Made by a program: the position numbers and the translations under genes. Shown here piece after piece: positions 52,280 through 64,000 of a DNA stretch of 64,000 bases (position 1 is its first letter; every line of letters begins with the position of its first letter). The notes beneath the pieces are model-generated. The model was not told the DNA's origin. It was given only the letters and a program-made list of their open reading frames with translations, and ran no database searches. The stretch is from Brachyspira alvinipulli ATCC 51933 (GTDB lineage: Bacteria; Spirochaetota; Brachyspiria; Brachyspirales; Brachyspiraceae), in the NCBI RefSeq assembly GCF_000518245.1, contig NZ_JADF01000020.1, forward strand, positions 1-64,000. Direction: 5' to 3'.

Positions 52280-52299
52280 GAACAGAGTTTATTTCATCA
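52280..52299 (+). promoter_or_regulatory. Lone match to the cassette box
   Basis: GAACAGAGTTTATTTCATCA, nearly the same as GAACAGAGTTATTGTCATCA in the five repeats at 61.7-63.9 kb. It lies downstream of TTGACT (52262-52267) in the leader of the replication operon, which suggests a shared regulator or promoter type. Confidence 0.5.
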
Positions 52300-57407: not shown

Positions 57408-58355
57408 ATGTCTTCTAAAAAAAAGAATGAATTAATATTAAAAAGGAATAATATAATAAGCCAAGAGCAAGCAGAACTTCTTTACAAACAAGCTAACTAC
57501 TTAAATATACTTGACTATATGAAAGAAGAGCAGCTTATTAAACAGATAGATTATGAAACAGAGAAAGAAAACTTTTTTAAGCAATGTTCAAAAACAAAAA
57601 GCAATCACACAAAAAGACAGTATAAAAACGGACTTAATAAACTAGAGGAATACTGTAAAATGAATAATAAGAATATTTTATTTATTAAAGCAAGAGAAGC
57701 TGATGATTTTATAACAGAAGTTAATTCTAGTGAGCTTTCTAATTTAAGTGTACGTGCATTAGTTTCTTCCTGTTCCTCTTTCTTTTCATTTTTAGAAAGA
57801 AGATATCCATTTATGAAAAATCCTTTTCGAGGTACAAAAACTCGTCCGCCTGTGAAAAATAAAAAACGTTTGGAAGTACCAACTAAAAAAGAAATTGAAT
57901 TAATAATTAAAGATGTATCAGATCCGCTTATAAAAGTGGCCATCATTTTTATAATGGAATGCGGTGTGCGTGTTGGTGCTTTATCTAATTTAGAAATTAG
58001 AAACAATCCCACAGGGACACATTCGTGTAAATATTATTCTTATTCAAAAGGAAAAGAAATAAGCTGGAAAGTTACTGACAAAGTTATTAAATTATTAAAA
58101 CAGAATAATCTCTCTTTTAATAATCCTTTCAAAAATAAAAGTTCTGAAGTAATAAGAAACATCTTTTATAGAAGTTCAAAGCGTTTATATGAACAAGGCA
58201 AAATAAAAGCTGCCTACTCTATACACGATATAAGGCATTATTTTGCTGTTACTCTATACAAACAAACCAAAGACATAGAACTTATTAGACAGGCATTAAA
58301 TCATAGTAGTATAGCTATAACAGGAATATACTTAAAAAGTTTGGAGGTAGAATAA
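57408..58355 (+). CDS. Tyrosine recombinase (integrase)
   Basis: 315 residues. N-terminal SAM-like DNA-binding domain (about 50-140) and catalytic domain with the full set: Arg188 (CGVRVGALS), His273 and Arg276 (HDIRHYF), His299 (LNHSS), Tyr308 (TGIYLK). It carries out site-specific strand exchange: integration/excision of this element or inversion of a segment. Two copies of a palindromic site flank the neighbouring GHKL gene, the nearer one 130 bases from this gene. Its stop overlaps the next start as TAATG. Confidence 0.93.
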   Translation: MSSKKKNELILKRNNIISQEQAELLYKQANYLNILDYMKEEQLIKQIDYETEKENFFKQCSKTKSNHTKRQYKNGLNKLEEYCKMNNKNILFIKAREADDFITEVNSSELSNLSVRALVSSCSSFFSFLERRYPFMKNPFRGTKTRPPVKNKKRLEVPTKKEIELIIKDVSDPLIKVAIIFIMECGVRVGALSNLEIRNNPTGTHSCKYYSYSKGKEISWKVTDKVIKLLKQNNLSFNNPFKNKSSEVIRNIFYRSSKRLYEQGKIKAAYSIHDIRHYFAVTLYKQTKDIELIRQALNHSSIAITGIYLKSLEVE

Positions 58356-58544: not shown

Positions 58545-60572
58545 CTAGTTTTTATTATTTATAATTGTCAATTTAGATTTTATATTCTTAAAGTCTAAAT
58601 TTGGGTATTTTGTATCTAAATTATTAAATATATAATCGTCTATGACTTTTAATTCATTTCCCATATAAGTTAATTTATCTCTATTAATTTTTATTAAATC
58701 AATCCATTGCATAATCCATATTTCTATATTGTTATCATTAAATGTAAAAGTTGGTTCTTTTAATTTTATAGTATTTTTTAATTTGTTATTTATACTTGAA
58801 CCAATTAATATTAATTTAAATTTAACATCAGTTTTAGATATTTTATTAGATTCATTTATAAGATTAGCATAATCTTGTATTTGTTCAACTTCTTTATATC
58901 CTATATGAAGAGATGGTCTTTTCAATTCCACAATTAATACTTCATGTCTATTAGTATATTTAAAATCAACCCAAAAAAACAGATCAGTTATTTTTTTTAT
59001 TTCATTTTTTATTGTTATTTCATCTGCTTCATTTGTATTTTTAATAATATTGTTTCTTAAGTCAATTAAATTATTACCAAGATTTTTATCACTTTTCAAT
59101 ATGGTATTATGACTATATTCTTCTCCAAATATCCATAGTTCTTTTTCTACAATTTTATGCAATTCTTGTCTTTCTAATATATATTTAGATATATCATCAG
59201 CATAGTTTATTTTTTCTAAAAAATCTAAAAAACACATTTTAGAAGCTACATCATCAGCAAAAGGAATGATTTTATCTAATTCTGTTTTATCTACCAAATC
59301 ATTAAATCTTTCAATTAGATCTTTTGGTAAAATACTAATATTGTTAATAATTTTCATAAAATTTGGATTTTCTATACATCCATTTAATAATGGATAAATT
59401 ATTTTAATAAGATCCTTATTTTTATTAGATAATAACTTATATTTTTGTTCTATTGAGTATGCTATTTGAATAAAAGCATATTCTTTACTTTTAGAAGAAC
59501 TTTCTTCATTTTTATACGGATAATTATCATCTTTTATTAATTTAGATTTGAAATCAAAATATTCTTGATATTGTTCTAGAAAAAAATTTTCTATATCTAT
59601 CCTTACTTTATCTAAAAAATTTTTTATATTAATATCAATATCATTAAAATCCATATTTTCAAAAATATCTAAATTATCATCTATATATTGCGAATCAACA
59701 TATATATGCCAACTTATTTTTGCTTTTCCTTTATAAGGTATATCAATTTCTATTTCAAAATAATTTAATATATTTTTAACACCGTTATTTTCTGTTCTTA
59801 TACAAATCGTTTTATTTTCCTTATTATTTTTTGATTTATGTTCTATAATATCATACTGAATGGAGTAATTATTATATTCACTATTAAATTGTTTTCTAGA
59901 TAATTGATAATCTTCTGCATTAACTTTTTTTTCATTAACAAAAAAAGAAATATTTTTATCAAGCATTTCTACAGGATAAGTAGTAAACAATGATAAACCT
60001 ATATTTTCTATTTTTAATGCATTATTAATTTTATGTTTTCTTTTATTATAGTTTATATCTTCTTCTGTAATCATATCTTTAATTTCTATTAAAAAATATG
60101 TGTCTTCTTTTGAATCAAAAATATCATGAAATATTTCTACTTCTTTATCTATATATCCAAGTTGAAGCTCATCTAGTTTTAATGTACAGTAGGTTTTTGT
60201 ATATTTTTCTAAAGTTTTATCGTATGAAATCGTTTCAAAATATACTGTTTTACCAAATTGAAAAACAGAAAATCTTCCAGTACCTTTCCCTTTAGGTTTT
60301 ATGTCTGTAGCTATTTCTAATATTTTTTTTGGAAAATCACTAAATGATACTCCAACACCATCATCTCTAATCGATAAAAAAGATATACTATCCTTTATTA
60401 ATTCATTAGGAGAATTAGATTCCATATTCAATTCTATAATTTTTGCTGATGCTTGGATAGAATTATTTATAAGTTCACATAATGCTAAAAAAGTATTGTT
60501 TTTATCTATTAAAGCACTTGTTATTAATCTTCCATTTACTTTTATTAATTTACTTTCTTTTTTTACAGACAT
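58545..60572 (-). CDS. GHKL ATPase fused to PD-(D/E)XK nuclease
   Basis: 675 residues, no signal peptide. N-terminal GHKL (HSP90/MORC/histidine-kinase-type) ATP-binding domain: N-box ALCELINNSIQAS (Glu33, Asn37), G1 loop DDGVG (Asp70, Gly72, Gly74), G2 loop GKGTGR at 95-100. The middle is a helical region. C-terminal domain: VDF with Asp536, then LIVELKRPS with Glu549 and Lys551, then QIQDYANL: the PD-(D/E)XK nuclease core as in DUF4263/Shedu-type proteins. An ATP-gated nuclease is inferred, most likely an anti-phage or anti-plasmid defence gene carried as cargo. AGGA precedes the ATG. Inverted palindromic sites flank the gene on both sides. Confidence 0.8.
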   Translation of the reverse strand: MSVKKESKLIKVNGRLITSALIDKNNTFLALCELINNSIQASAKIIELNMESNSPNELIKDSISFLSIRDDGVGVSFSDFPKKILEIATDIKPKGKGTGRFSVFQFGKTVYFETISYDKTLEKYTKTYCTLKLDELQLGYIDKEVEIFHDIFDSKEDTYFLIEIKDMITEEDINYNKRKHKINNALKIENIGLSLFTTYPVEMLDKNISFFVNEKKVNAEDYQLSRKQFNSEYNNYSIQYDIIEHKSKNNKENKTICIRTENNGVKNILNYFEIEIDIPYKGKAKISWHIYVDSQYIDDNLDIFENMDFNDIDINIKNFLDKVRIDIENFFLEQYQEYFDFKSKLIKDDNYPYKNEESSSKSKEYAFIQIAYSIEQKYKLLSNKNKDLIKIIYPLLNGCIENPNFMKIINNISILPKDLIERFNDLVDKTELDKIIPFADDVASKMCFLDFLEKINYADDISKYILERQELHKIVEKELWIFGEEYSHNTILKSDKNLGNNLIDLRNNIIKNTNEADEITIKNEIKKITDLFFWVDFKYTNRHEVLIVELKRPSLHIGYKEVEQIQDYANLINESNKISKTDVKFKLILIGSSINNKLKNTIKLKEPTFTFNDNNIEIWIMQWIDLIKINRDKLTYMGNELKVIDDYIFNNLDTKYPNLDFKNIKSKLTIINNKN

Positions 60573-60643: not shown

Positions 60644-60844
60644 TTATATATTTAATTCTTTTAATACAGCATCTCTAATATATTGAGATACACTGACATT
60701 GTTCTGTTCTGCTTTTTCTTTTATTAGGAGCTGTTCTTTTTCACTAACACGCATATATAATTTAATGTCAAGCCTATCTTCTGTCTTTCTTTTTGGTCCA
60801 GAGTTAGCTCTAGCCCCTCCCCAGCTATTTTTTTTATTATCCAT
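60644..60844 (-). CDS. Ribbon-helix-helix DNA-binding protein
   Basis: 66 residues. WGGARANSGPKRK at 8-20 is an AT-hook-like basic arm found in plasmid mobilisation and control proteins; then a ribbon-helix-helix: IKLYMRVSEKEQLLIKEKAE and SVSQYIRDAVLKEL. Its start overlaps the end of the second small peptide by eight bases (ATGGATAA). Probably represses this operon or acts in mobilisation. Confidence 0.75.
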   Translation of the reverse strand: MDNKKNSWGGARANSGPKRKTEDRLDIKLYMRVSEKEQLLIKEKAEQNNVSVSQYIRDAVLKELNI

Positions 60845-60935
60845 TATTATGACCTCTTTTCAATAAAAGAACTAATACTACTATATTAAGTGATAATGAT
60901 ACTACAGATAATATTGCATTTACAGTTGTTAACAT
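60837..60935 (-). CDS. 32-aa hydrophobic peptide
   Basis: One membrane segment (AILSVVSLSLNIVVLVLLLK), then a short basic end. AAAGGAG lies 9 bases before ATG 60935, and the stop overlaps the next start. The size and charge pattern match small membrane toxins, but no family motif is clear. Confidence 0.6.
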   Translation of the reverse strand: MLTTVNAILSVVSLSLNIVVLVLLLKRGHNNG

Positions 60936-61047
60936 CTTGACAACTCCTTTATAATGTATATAATATTAACTATGGAAGTCAGGAGCCAAGTCGGCTAACT
61001 TAGCTCCCTTTCGTGACTAATAAAAATTATTTTTTAATTTTTATTAG
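60926..61047 (+). ncRNA. Candidate antisense RNA of the toxin gene
   Basis: On the plus strand TTGTTA (60926-60931), an 18-base spacer, TATAAT (60950-60955). The transcript would include the 10-bp hairpin 60982-61007 (GGAGC...GCTCC) and end at the perfect 13-bp stem CTAATAAAAATTA / TAATTTTTATTAG (61017-61047), covering the 3' end of the toxin ORF, as in TxpA/RatA-type systems. Confidence 0.5.
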
Positions 61048-61113
61048 TTTAACCACAATTACGATAAGAGTCACGATATCAATAATTGTAGCTATGAAAG
61101 TTAAGACTTCCAT
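61027..61113 (-). CDS. Type I toxin-like hydrophobic peptide
   Basis: 28 residues: MEVLTFIATIIDIVTLIVIV then VKLIKIKK. One membrane helix and a Lys-rich tail, close to the putative holin-like toxin (Hol_Tox/BsrG-like) pattern. GAAGGAGG lies 6 bases before the ATG; the promoter is consensus. The 14 bases around the start codon (61105-61118) are complementary to the same message 3' of the ORF (60967-60980), with one G-U pair, which would hide the start in the full-length RNA. This is the design of type I toxin messages. Confidence 0.75.
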   Translation of the reverse strand: MEVLTFIATIIDIVTLIVIVVKLIKIKK

Positions 61114-61146
61114 AATTACCTCCTTCATTTCTTTAGGATTGATTAT

Positions 61147-61194: not shown

Positions 61195-61347
61195 ATAATT
61201 TATTTTAATTTTTTTCTTATCTGAATTATAACTGATTTATATTCAATTGGCTGGGGGTGGGGAAAATCTCTGTGGGCTTTTACTCGGTGCAACGAGTGGG
61301 GAGTCTTTTATGCATGGCGATAACTTTTTTATTAGGGGGTATCAATA
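61195..61347. other. G-rich intergenic patch
   Basis: Between the toxin promoter and the 3' end of the coiled-coil gene. It holds GGCTGGGGGTGGGG and a hairpin ACTCG-GTGCAA-CGAGT at about 61284-61300. On the minus strand this forms the 3' end region of the coiled-coil gene. No gene is convincing. Confidence 0.4.
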
Positions 61348-61617
61348 TCATTTTTCTAATTCTTTAATTTTATTTTCTAATTCATCAATTCTTTTTACAG
61401 TTTCTTCTAATTCTTCCACTCTTTTCTTTAATTTCTGCATTTCACTGCCTTTTTCTTCGTATTCTTTTTTAGCTTTTGCAACACAAGCCTGCACAAAACC
61501 ACCAAATGTAGAATTAGAATAATTTAGAGGATCTGCTTTAGCTTTTTCAACCATTTTTACAATCCATCTATATATATCTTGATTAAAATTAATAGTTATA
61601 CCATTCCTAGAATCCAT
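61348..61617 (-). CDS. Small coiled-coil protein
   Basis: 89 residues. N-terminal half resembles a DNA-binding ribbon/helix region (GITINFNQDIYRWIVKMVEK); the C-terminal 40 residues are a regular Glu/Lys coiled coil (KLKKRVEELEETVKRIDELE). AAGGAG precedes the ATG. Divergent from the cassette array. Possibly a partition or regulatory protein of the element. Confidence 0.65.
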   Translation of the reverse strand: MDSRNGITINFNQDIYRWIVKMVEKAKADPLNYSNSTFGGFVQACVAKAKKEYEEKGSEMQKLKKRVEELEETVKRIDELENKIKELEK

Positions 61618-61703
61618 TAATATTCTCCTTTTTTGAATTATATTATTTATTTATAAAAAGTTATAAAAATAACCAATTTAACAATTTGGCAATTTAAAAG
61701 TCT

Positions 61704-61796
61704 GAAAAATAACTTTTTGCGGAAAAGAACTTGCTATCTTTTGGAACAGAGTTATTGTCATCACATAAATAATTAATTAAAAAAGGTAATCAAAAA
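61704..61796 (+). repeat. Cassette promoter repeat, unit 1
   Basis: First and most divergent unit: CTTTTTGCGGAAAAGAAC, then TTGCTA - 16 bases - TATTGT, the box GAACAGAGTTATTGTCATCA (61744-61763), CACATAAATAATTAA and a weak AAAGG ribosome site. Confidence 0.85.
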
Positions 61797-62108
61797 ATGA
61801 ATCAAGAAGTAATCAAAAATGTAGAGCTTATATTAAATAAATTATTAGAGACAGAGCATTTAACAATAGAAGTTCTTAGTAATCAAATAAAAATATTTGC
61901 ATACGGAAAACACATAGCAGATTTTTCAGTATCTTATGGAAGTTATTATAACTTAAAATCCTATACACCAACTGAAAATTGCATAGGTGATTCTGACATA
62001 GCGGATAGAGATGTATATGCAGACTTATTATTATTAATATCAAAAATGTTAAGAACAAATAACTATACTAATATAATGAAAATATTAGAAACTCTTATAA
62101 GTAAATAA
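61797..62108 (+). CDS. Cassette 1 gene A, unknown
   Basis: 103 residues, acidic, alpha/beta (KIFAYGKHIADFSVSYGSYY), no family recognised. Followed 13 bases later by a second gene, the only cassette seen with two genes. Confidence 0.75.
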   Translation: MNQEVIKNVELILNKLLETEHLTIEVLSNQIKIFAYGKHIADFSVSYGSYYNLKSYTPTENCIGDSDIADRDVYADLLLLISKMLRTNNYTNIMKILETLISK

Positions 62109-62121
62109 ATGGAGGTTATAT

Positions 62122-62355
62122 ATGCAAGATAAAATAACAACATTAGAAGATGCCAAAAAAAAATTAGGTCATAATTTATTAATATTAGAAAACAAAAACA
62201 GTATTATAGTATTTGATAGAGAGAAATATGCTTTATATAAAAAAAATGTGAACTGTATAATTTTTACTAAAGAAGGGAAATTTAAATATTATTCAAGTAT
62301 GACTAACGATTTAAGATTACGTAAAAGATTATATGAACAGCTGTTAAAGAAGTGA
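62122..62355 (+). CDS. Cassette 1 gene B, unknown
   Basis: 77 residues, basic, with IIVFDREKYALYKKNVNCII. GGAGG precedes the ATG. Not related to the other cassette proteins by eye. Confidence 0.7.
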   Translation: MQDKITTLEDAKKKLGHNLLILENKNSIIVFDREKYALYKKNVNCIIFTKEGKFKYYSSMTNDLRLRKRLYEQLLKK

Positions 62356-62374
62356 TAAAGAAAAATAATTTTTG

Positions 62375-62402
62375 TAGGGCTGTTTTAACAGCCCTATTTT
62401 TT
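62375..62402 (+). terminator. Cassette 1 terminator
   Basis: TAGGGCTGTT paired with AACAGCCCTA, then T6. Confidence 0.88.
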
Positions 62403-62523
62403 CCTTAATTTTTAAAAAATAAGTGAGAAAAAATTATAGTTTCGCAGGAAAAGAACTTGCTATCTTTTGGAACAGAGTTATTGTCATCACATAAATAAAT
62501 AATTAAAAAAGAGGTAATTAAAA
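62401..62523 (+). repeat. Cassette promoter repeat, unit 2
   Basis: CCTTAATTTT spacer, TAGTTTCGCAGGAAAAGAAC, TTGCTA - 16 - TATTGT, the common box, and GAGGTAATTA ribosome site. Confidence 0.92.
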
Positions 62524-62823
62524 ATGATTAATTTTAGTTTGAATGATATAAAAGAAGGATTAAAAGAATACTACTCAGAAAAAGCAGCTGAATTATTAGC
62601 AGAACATTTGGTAGTAAAAGAGCAAGGAGCAAGTTTACCAATTTTAGCTTCATTAAATGAAAATGATGAATATGAAGTATCTATAGGCTATGATCTTATT
62701 AAAGATGTTTATCAAGAGTTTGATACAGAGGGCTTTATTAAATATTTAGAAGAAAATGAAAATCTGTATGGTGATAATATATTAATTAGTGATGATAATT
62801 TAGTAATATGCTATATAGAATAA
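62524..62823 (+). CDS. Cassette 2 gene, unknown acidic protein
   Basis: 99 residues, strongly acidic. FSLNDI near the start and DLIKDVYQEFDTEGFIKYLE near the end match the cassette 3 protein (FTLDSI, QVILNVFKEFTTKEFIDFVK), so the two are distant paralogues. Function unknown. Confidence 0.75.
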   Translation: MINFSLNDIKEGLKEYYSEKAAELLAEHLVVKEQGASLPILASLNENDEYEVSIGYDLIKDVYQEFDTEGFIKYLEENENLYGDNILISDDNLVICYIE

Positions 62824-62846
62824 TAATATAATTATTATATTAAATG

Positions 62847-62871
62847 AGGGGCATTAATCCCCTTATTTTTT
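62847..62871 (+). terminator. Cassette 2 terminator
   Basis: AGGGG (62847-62851) paired with CCCCT (62859-62863), then a T-rich tail. Confidence 0.82.
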
Positions 62872-62990
62872 GCCTTAATTTTAAGAAATAAATGTGAAAA
62901 AATTATAGTTTCGCAGGAAAAGAACTTGCTATCTTTTGGAACAGAGTTATTGTCATCACATAAATAAATAATTAAAAAGAGGTAAATAAA
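62871..62990 (+). repeat. Cassette promoter repeat, unit 3
   Basis: 120 bases, identical to unit 5 over the spacer and box (GCCTTAATTTTAAGAAATAA, TTTCGCAGGAAAAGAAC, common box, AGAGGTAA). Confidence 0.92.
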
Positions 62991-63308
62991 ATGACAACTT
63001 TTACATTAGATAGTATTGCTAAAAAAATATTAGAAAACACTAATTTTTCTAAAAATTCATCTGAGACAATAGCTAATTTTATAATAGAAGATGATTGCTT
63101 TACACTTGAAGAAGATTTTTTTTCAAGGGTATATGATAAAGAAAAAAAAGAACTTATAATTGATGTTGATATACAAGTAATATTAAATGTATTTAAAGAG
63201 TTCACTACTAAAGAATTTATAGATTTTGTTAAAGATAAAAAGAATAAGTTTGATAAGAATAAAATAATGAAAAAAGGAGCTAATTATATATTGTATAGAA
63301 TGTTTTAA
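62991..63308 (+). CDS. Cassette 3 gene, paralogue of cassette 2
   Basis: 105 residues; similar to the cassette 2 protein at both ends but divergent in the middle. Charged, no membrane segment, no Cys pair. Function unknown. Confidence 0.75.
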   Translation: MTTFTLDSIAKKILENTNFSKNSSETIANFIIEDDCFTLEEDFFSRVYDKEKKELIIDVDIQVILNVFKEFTTKEFIDFVKDKKNKFDKNKIMKKGANYILYRMF

Positions 63309-63313
63309 TATCA

Positions 63314-63350
63314 AAAAATAAGGGGCTTTAAAGCCCCTTATTTTTTTGCC
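63314..63350 (+). terminator. Cassette 3 terminator
   Basis: AAAAAATAAGGGGCTTT (63314-63330) and its exact complement (63331-63347): a 17-bp palindrome with no unpaired centre in the DNA, then T-rich. Confidence 0.9.
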
Positions 63351-63460
63351 TTAATTTTAGTAAATAAGTAAGAAAAAAATAACTTTTTTCGGAAAAGAAG
63401 TTGCTATCTTTTGGAACAGAGTTATTGTCATCACATAAATAATTAAAAGAGGTAATTACA
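63347..63460 (+). repeat. Cassette promoter repeat, unit 4
   Basis: Variant with CTTTTTTCGGAAAAGAAG before TTGCTA, closer to unit 1 in this part but the same downstream box and ribosome site. Confidence 0.9.
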
Positions 63461-63763
63461 ATGGATAAAAAAGAAATATTAAAAAACATAGAAGAAGATA
63501 TGCTCATTATTATAGAAGTTCAAAAGAACAGCAGTGATGATTTATTCTTAAAGGGATTTTTAATTGATAATTTGTATGATATAGCAGATAATGAAAATGC
63601 ATTTTATAAAGAAGAGTTAAATGAACACGTAAAATATTGTAATTCTTGTAATTATTATTATTTTACTATTATAGATAATGATGATGTGGATAGAATAAAA
63701 GGTGATGTAGTAAGGTTACCAAACGATTATATGACAGCAGTACATTTATTTAAACTTCTTTAA
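63461..63763 (+). CDS. Cassette 4 gene, unknown acidic protein
   Basis: 100 residues, acidic; includes HVKYCNSCNYYYFTIIDNDD with one Cys pair. Not visibly related to the other cassette proteins. AGAGGTAATTACA precedes the ATG. Confidence 0.75.
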   Translation: MDKKEILKNIEEDMLIIIEVQKNSSDDLFLKGFLIDNLYDIADNENAFYKEELNEHVKYCNSCNYYYFTIIDNDDVDRIKGDVVRLPNDYMTAVHLFKLL

Positions 63764-63782
63764 TATTATATTTAATTGTATA

Positions 63783-63808
63783 AAGGGGCATTAAAGCCCC
63801 TTATTTTT
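63783..63808 (+). terminator. Cassette 4 terminator
   Basis: AAGGGGC (63783-63789) paired with GCCCCTT (63796-63802), then ATTTTTGCC. Confidence 0.88.
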
Positions 63809-63925
63809 GCCTTAATTTTAAGAAATAAATGTGAAAAAATTATAGTTTCGCAGGAAAAGAACTTGCTATCTTTTGGAACAGAGTTATTGTCATCACATAA
63901 ATAATTAAAAAAGAGGTAATTAAAA
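63808..63925 (+). repeat. Cassette promoter repeat, unit 5
   Basis: 118 bases nearly identical to unit 3; ends AAGAGGTAATTAAAA before the next gene. Confidence 0.92.
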
Positions 63926-64000
63926 ATGATTCAATTAGAAAGATATTTTAGAATATACGGTGAGGCAACTAAGGCATTAAGAGAATGCAAATATGAAAAT
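63926..64000 (+). CDS. Cassette 5 gene, cut by window edge
   Basis: The first 25 codons only, starting MIQLERYFRIYGEATKALRE. The start and ribosome site follow the pattern of the other cassettes. It runs off the right edge. Confidence 0.7.
   Translation, partial: MIQLERYFRIYGEATKALRECKYEN

Follow-up and report, generated by a model that had tools for sequence, protein, structure and literature searches.

The right end of the 64,000-nucleotide stretch of Brachyspira alvinipulli DNA analysed here (the window) carries a row of small genes behind copies of one nearly invariant control sequence, and we put at roughly 70% the probability that it represents an accessory module of Brachyspira temperate phages of the following kind. 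Between a conserved GC-rich element and the gene for the large terminase subunit, the module contains the divergent gene c3 and a succession of cassettes with one or two genes each. A cassette starts with a control block, continues with a small orphan gene and in most cases closes with a terminator. Comparison of the arrays shows that cassettes are lost, duplicated and newly combined, chiefly within the block, while their order stays unchanged. Homologous recombination between prophages or co-infecting phages would mediate the exchange, and crossovers between co-oriented repeats would delete, duplicate and convert cassettes but preserve their order. The core of the block would act as a promoter read with a dedicated phage factor, with c3 as the best regulator candidate, and the products may be accessory proteins acting on the host, competing phages or host defences. 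Of these inferences, the one on the promoter is the strongest, that on c3 is weaker, and that on what the products do is the weakest.

Layout of the array and its genes

The contig is 70.7 kb long and the window covers its left 64 kb; the array lies near the right end of the window, within a Brachyspira prophage. Five units of control block, gene and hairpin are located inside the window, as counted in the initial annotation, and extension to the right, which that annotation had proposed, revealed a sixth core 232 bases after the window end (Table 1). The elements TTGCTA-16-TATTGT, a box GAACAGAGTTATTGTCATCA, CACATAAATAA and a Shine-Dalgarno sequence are present in all five window units, and each of these units does end in its own GC hairpin with a T-tract. 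The reported near-identity of the control DNA of units 3 and 5 was also confirmed: the two blocks agree throughout the core and at 59 of the 60 positions upstream of it, and unit 2 is close as well. The one-gene cassette implied by the initial annotation applies to units 2 to 5, but unit 1 has two genes. Likewise, the products do differ as suggested and belong to several unrelated families, but they are not all unrelated because units 2 and 3 hold distant paralogues of one family. The description of the products as small and acidic fits six proteins (pI 4.05–6.35) but not that of the second gene of unit 1 (pI 9.8).

Table 1 Features of the module in the window and just beyond its right edge.
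Feature	Position	Strand	Remarks
GC-rich non-coding element (ACCCCCTAATAAAAAA...GACTCCCCACTCGTTGCACC...)	61236-61345	.	left border of c3 and array module; highly conserved
c3, 89 aa, candidate regulator	61348-61617	-	divergent from array; N-terminal strand/helix/helix pattern and C-terminal coiled coil
Leader, c3 to first core	61618-61730	.	type I of three leader types; same types precede other first genes in other prophages
Unit 1 core of control block	61731-61760	+	model R1, 67.2 bits
A1, unit 1 first gene, 103 aa	61797-62108	+	orthologue in G004 with codon-position bias; no Pfam, PHROG or PADLOC family
A2, unit 1 second gene, 77 aa, basic	62122-62355	+	orthologues in G004, G023, V3103
Unit 1 terminator	62374-62397	+	hairpin and T-tract
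Unit 2 core of control block	62457-62486	+	block model match
beta1, unit 2 gene, 99 aa, pI 4.05	62524-62823	+	beta family; AlphaFold2 model, without fold match
Unit 2 terminator	62842-62868	+	terminator search
Unit 3 core of control block	62926-62955	+	block model match
beta2, unit 3 gene, 105 aa	62991-63308	+	distant paralogue of beta1, about 20% identical
Unit 3 terminator	63315-63344	+	terminator search
Unit 4 core of control block	63401-63430	+	block model match
D, unit 4 gene, 100 aa	63461-63763	+	window array only; no relative among array genes, no confident family
Unit 4 terminator	63783-63802	+	terminator search
Unit 5 core of control block	63863-63892	+	block model match
gamma1, unit 5 gene, 69 aa, TPR-like helical hairpin	63926-64000, runs on to contig position 64135	+
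Unit 6 core	contig 64232-64261, beyond window		then delta1 gene at 64296-64670

Clustering of the cassette genes gave the families delta (with A1 and epsilon weakly attached), beta, gamma, A2 and D; on weak evidence, epsilon and A1 may be distant delta relatives. These few small orphan families are seen only in the arrays, apart from delta, which otherwise occurs only as remnants. Specifically, genus-wide profile searches found beta and gamma genes near the block only, and a delta-protein scan of the genome contigs found relatives in named Brachyspira, Brachyspira innocens among them. The delta remnants away from arrays include a fragment in G009, where a broken delta gene follows directly on leader I. 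Of the three codon positions, the second generally varies least, as expected of coding genes.

The control block and the neighbouring gene c3

The control block consists of a variable arm, a nearly invariant bipartite core of 30 nt (TTGCTATCTTT-N4-ACAGAGTTATTGTCA), an A-rich leader and a ribosome site. The genus-wide profile search suggested in the initial annotation was carried out with a 50-nt block model and yielded 43 copies, all with E values of about 1e-11 or lower, from 11 of the 26 Brachyspira genomes, which is far beyond chance; the scores drop from 45 bits for the last copies to 18.8 bits for the next match. No further copies were found elsewhere in the source genome, and with filters off nothing besides block copies scored above 7.9 bits in five 20-kb loci. 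A near-match to the box at 52280 (5.7 bits, E 1.9) was set aside as chance. A core-pattern scan of a viral sequence collection matched 11 stretches. Eight IMG/VR prophage contigs carry copies beyond those of the genomes, and three of these contigs match arrays already in the genome set.

Among the 50 tabulated copies, core substitutions outside the central four bases number five in total. Between genes of the same family in different arrays, the 26 other core positions are 99.2% identical, compared with 86.8% for third codon positions and 61% for the central four bases, and this comparison indicates that selection, and not homogenisation alone, keeps the core alike. The arm, covering 60 nt upstream of the core, averages 75–82% identity.

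The promoter reading of the initial annotation holds in that its hexamers recur in every window unit, but only 8 of their 12 positions agree with the sigma-70 consensus. Sigma-70-like sites occur in the region at chance level (28 versus 30 expected), and a promoter scan of the region did not pick up the core. The core is probably a promoter dependent on a dedicated phage factor; we propose such a factor because 26 of the 30 core positions are nearly invariant, including those of the spacer, while the match to sigma-70 is poor. Terminator-like sites numbered 11 in 3.5 kb versus 0.2 in shuffles, and across arrays 29 of 39 spacers contain a terminator versus 0 in shuffles, with a clear one missing from about a quarter of the spacers.

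The gene c3 flanks every array whose left flank is in the available sequence, and the aligned members are 80–92% identical to c3 of the window. It is absent jointly with the array from G016 and from the second prophages of G019 and G005. In these array-free sister prophages the GC-rich element abuts the terminase stop directly, and c3 and the array thus act as one insertion with an empty site. The GC-rich element itself, a candidate packaging (cos/pac) site, occurs in 13 of the 14 array flanks that were inspected and lies right beside terL in the array-free prophages; no conserved RNA fold was found in it. The AlphaFold2 model of c3 contains two helices at low confidence (pTM 0.36) and has no PDB fold match, the strand/helix/helix pattern was read by eye, and Pfam returned a coiled coil only and no RHH family. 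Judged from sequence, c3 would be the best candidate for a regulator of the core. A second prophage of G000 (C5, L176), located about 5–10 kb from the end of its contig, has the GC-rich element and a c3 that is truncated, and where the array would be it carries a methylase-like gene.

The units could also be ordinary prophage morons, i.e. lysogenic conversion genes read from constitutive host promoters, with c3 unrelated to them. A promoter and a terminator of its own for each unit is the moron arrangement, and a defence-like accessory slot lies nearby. We nevertheless consider this reading unlikely, since such conservation, extending into the -35/-10 spacer, would be unexpected for a constitutive sigma-70 promoter, and c3 is a constant companion that is missing only together with the array. 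Somewhat less probable still is that the core acts at the RNA level, as an antitermination signal (a nut/put-like site) or a translation enhancer in one long transcript that passes the hairpins. The poor sigma-70 match combined with strong conservation over 30 nt would suit an RNA signal, and the two-gene units without a block before the second gene show that co-transcription occurs or is tolerated. Against this, the core shows no evident conserved hairpin, the matches of Rfam to the array all stayed below threshold, the core is located at promoter distance (about 65 nt in each unit) from the start codon and directly after a terminator, and the single-cassette arrays of G005 and G017 retain the block.

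Several more specific candidates were rejected. A LexA-like reading of GAAC...GTT was dropped as the bases before ACAGAG vary, and the symmetry of the half-sites TCTTT-N4-AMAGA as an operator is short and, with 4 of 5 pairs and many centres to choose from, not significant. A 246-aa protein that by eye has the look of a divergent sigma factor is encoded upstream of the integrase in four prophages (L049, L121, L125, and L052); it was discarded as the dedicated factor, as PF04542 did not match and the gene was not seen in the sequenced part of several array prophages, including G000 and G019.

Order and exchange of cassettes

The comparison covers sixteen prophage arrays from one genus, a modest sample in which contig ends truncate some arrays. 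G023 counted for little in the junction tallies because its assembly has an Illumina adapter beside the array block. This adapter, AGATCGGAAGAGCGTC, adjoins the block at L041 near 9330 and likely reflects a misassembly.

The cassettes follow one canonical order: A1+A2, beta3, beta4, beta1, beta2, D, gamma2, gamma3, gamma4, gamma1, delta1, and delta2, of which each prophage carries a subset. Only 1 of 109 order relations is inconsistent, versus a mean of 28 and a minimum of 15 in within-array shuffles, and this single case is due to a duplicate in G004. The shuffled order between strains that the initial annotation anticipated is therefore not observed; only the subset of cassettes varies.

The connections between leaders, cassettes and their neighbours do vary. 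Leader type I precedes A1, beta1, gamma3 or A2, type II precedes A1, beta3, beta1 or gamma3, and type III precedes A2, gamma4 or delta1. Similarly, delta1 follows five different genes and gamma4 four, and the joins are always at the block. In V3103 and V4716 the leader and core are identical at 159 of 161 positions and the sequences then diverge, the next gene of V4716 being the unit 2 gene of V3103; exactly one cassette of V3103 is missing from V4716. Units 4 and 5 of G004 are one cassette in nearly identical duplicate with different flanks. In addition, block arms of one array resemble each other more than they do those of other arrays (p=0.001), gene family having a smaller effect (p=0.017), and among the tabulated copies the arm TTATAGTTTCGCAGG is found in window units 2, 3, and 5 only.

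These observations agree with the initial proposal that cassettes are exchanged through homologous recombination within the conserved control DNA, and recombination at the block is the process they suggest. The same genes in the same order in every relative had been named there as evidence against exchange. That order is indeed kept, but cassettes of several unrelated families have been gained, lost and re-joined. Because the re-joined junctions, the loss, the duplication and the homogenised arms are all at the block while the order is fixed, the comparison supports exchange but not free shuffling. The delta genes at L046 and L048 (G007 and G022) have a delta1-like start and a delta2-like continuation near the 5' end, which on weak grounds suggests that they are fusions formed by recombination inside the gene and not in the block.

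Tandem duplication of a single gene family, with copies that diverged in place and blocks alike by descent without exchange, would explain the fixed order in all arrays, the adjacency of paralogues (beta1–4, gamma1–4, and delta1–2) and the fresh tandem duplicate in G004. The array does hold old paralogous duplications as well. As an account of the whole array we consider this improbable, since the block is common to at least four families without detectable similarity, its arms track the array more than the gene family, and leader/gene combinations differ at the block, so that the junction table already largely refutes it. Movement of cassettes by a site-specific recombinase with the core as its site, as in integrons, is very improbable: the bipartite core around a variable centre has the general outline of a recombinase core site and a tyrosine recombinase gene is located 3.4 kb leftwards (57408-58355), but that recombinase matches phage integrases of the ordinary kind (phrog_1) and not an integron integrase, no significant inverted arms of the attC type were found when the core was read from the alignment, the order is fixed with all cassettes in the same direction, and the sequence shared in the duplicate and the deletion extends past the core, the trace expected of homologous recombination.

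Prophage setting, products and related systems

The array is carried by a temperate phage with an integrase. From their translations, we take the genes just outside the window to encode the large and small terminase subunits, a DNA methylase, portal, protease and capsid; the methylase is also supported by a database search. At L039 (731-2937), both terminase genes oppose the portal, protease and capsid genes, with the methylase gene between them. To the left of the array is a variable slot, which contains IetAS in G010, GmrSD-type and HEPN genes in G017, Abi_alpha in G007, a DUF2326 ATPase in G022 and, in the window, a 675-aa GHKL ATPase (58545-60572, minus strand). Two short hydrophobic peptides of 28–33 aa (60837-60935 and 61027-61128, minus strand) are conserved beside the GC-rich element, and the second is located behind a perfect TTGACA-16-TATAAT. 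They are possibly type I toxin-like or small membrane proteins.

No confident family was found for the cassette products in Pfam, PHROG or PADLOC, and a PDB sequence search gave no confident match, with gamma resembling one TPR hairpin. The confident AlphaFold2 model for the beta family (beta1; pLDDT 87, pTM 0.77) did not match any fold among PDB and viral structures. No similarity to a known anti-CRISPR or anti-defence inhibitor was found in Pfam, PHROGs, PADLOC, PDB sequences or the beta folds. The defence-like slot beside the array lends circumstantial support to a candidate anti-defence role of the products. We hold as a tentative and rather unlikely possibility that the whole is a phage cassette bank, in which c3 regulates the cassettes via the 30-nt core as operator-promoter, the same DNA provides the homology for swapping, and the products are anti-defence proteins with new folds; such a bank would lie between the packaging site and the terminase gene, and therefore at one end of the virion DNA.

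PeSL (promoter early stem-loop) elements, reportedly described by Arbiol et al. in 2010 and Comeau et al. in 2014, are said to be mobile regulatory cassettes of T4-type phages. The comparison with PeSL made in the initial annotation is a fair functional analogy: in both, conserved promoter-like and stem-loop DNA lies between small variable genes, and genes are gained and lost by recombination there. In the array, the stem-loop part would be the terminator of the 29 spacers, and the promoter part the core with its 8 of 12 sigma-70 positions. Gene gain and loss at this composite is seen in the junctions, the V3103/V4716 loss, the G004 duplicate and the leader exchange, whereas shuffling of the order is not (1 of 109). 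The array also differs in belonging to a temperate spirochaete phage with an integrase and not to a T4-type myovirus, in having no T4-type early promoter but a core unlike a strong sigma-70 early promoter, and in forming one compact array of fixed place and order with a dedicated neighbour gene, c3. Because of the fixed order and the different phage and promoter types, we do not class it as PeSL. Promoter-terminator cassettes that mediate gene exchange are already known, and the array would by analogy be a variant that works like the PeSL system.

Other systems share single traits with the module. In the archaeal virus HGTV-1, PeSL-like motifs with a promoter-like part and an inverted repeat precede many ORFs and a role in exchange was proposed, but they are spread over the left part of the virus genome and there is no accessory array with an empty site (PMC3950731). 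The start-associated sequences SAS and ESAS of Cluster K mycobacteriophages, conserved upstream of genes of different families, are a looser parallel: they are 13-nt sequences at gene starts, dispersed in the genome and without terminator-bounded cassettes (PMC3203893). Prophage morons and accessory loci, as described in passages of PMC7067206, are extra genes with their own expression signals. The insertion of c3 and the array between phage genes, absent at the same site in sister prophages, resembles them, while a multi-unit array under one nearly invariant control sequence differs from what those passages describe. According to passages of PMC9122126, defence hotspots of P2/P4-type phages are fixed-position slots for variable genes bordered by conserved phage genes; in the present prophages the defence-like slot is the neighbouring region, and the array is without a known defence gene. 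The searched passages of the Brachyspira prophage literature, including those of PMC3163572, contain no mention of the array.

The module is a compact comparative case of accessory gene assembly in temperate phages, combining one control sequence, several unrelated orphan families in variable subsets but unchanging order, an empty site and a partner gene. It makes testable the long-standing question of whether phages retain shared control DNA for its regulatory role or because it gives recombination a handle. Furthermore, its small orphan families, from poorly studied gut spirochaetes of pigs, birds and humans, are candidates for anti-defence or lysogeny screens.

One of the array-free genomes, G016, carries the terminase in three near-identical copies. 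Three pM prophages of B. murdochii are reported in a passage of PMC3163572, and the three copies would fit these prophages.
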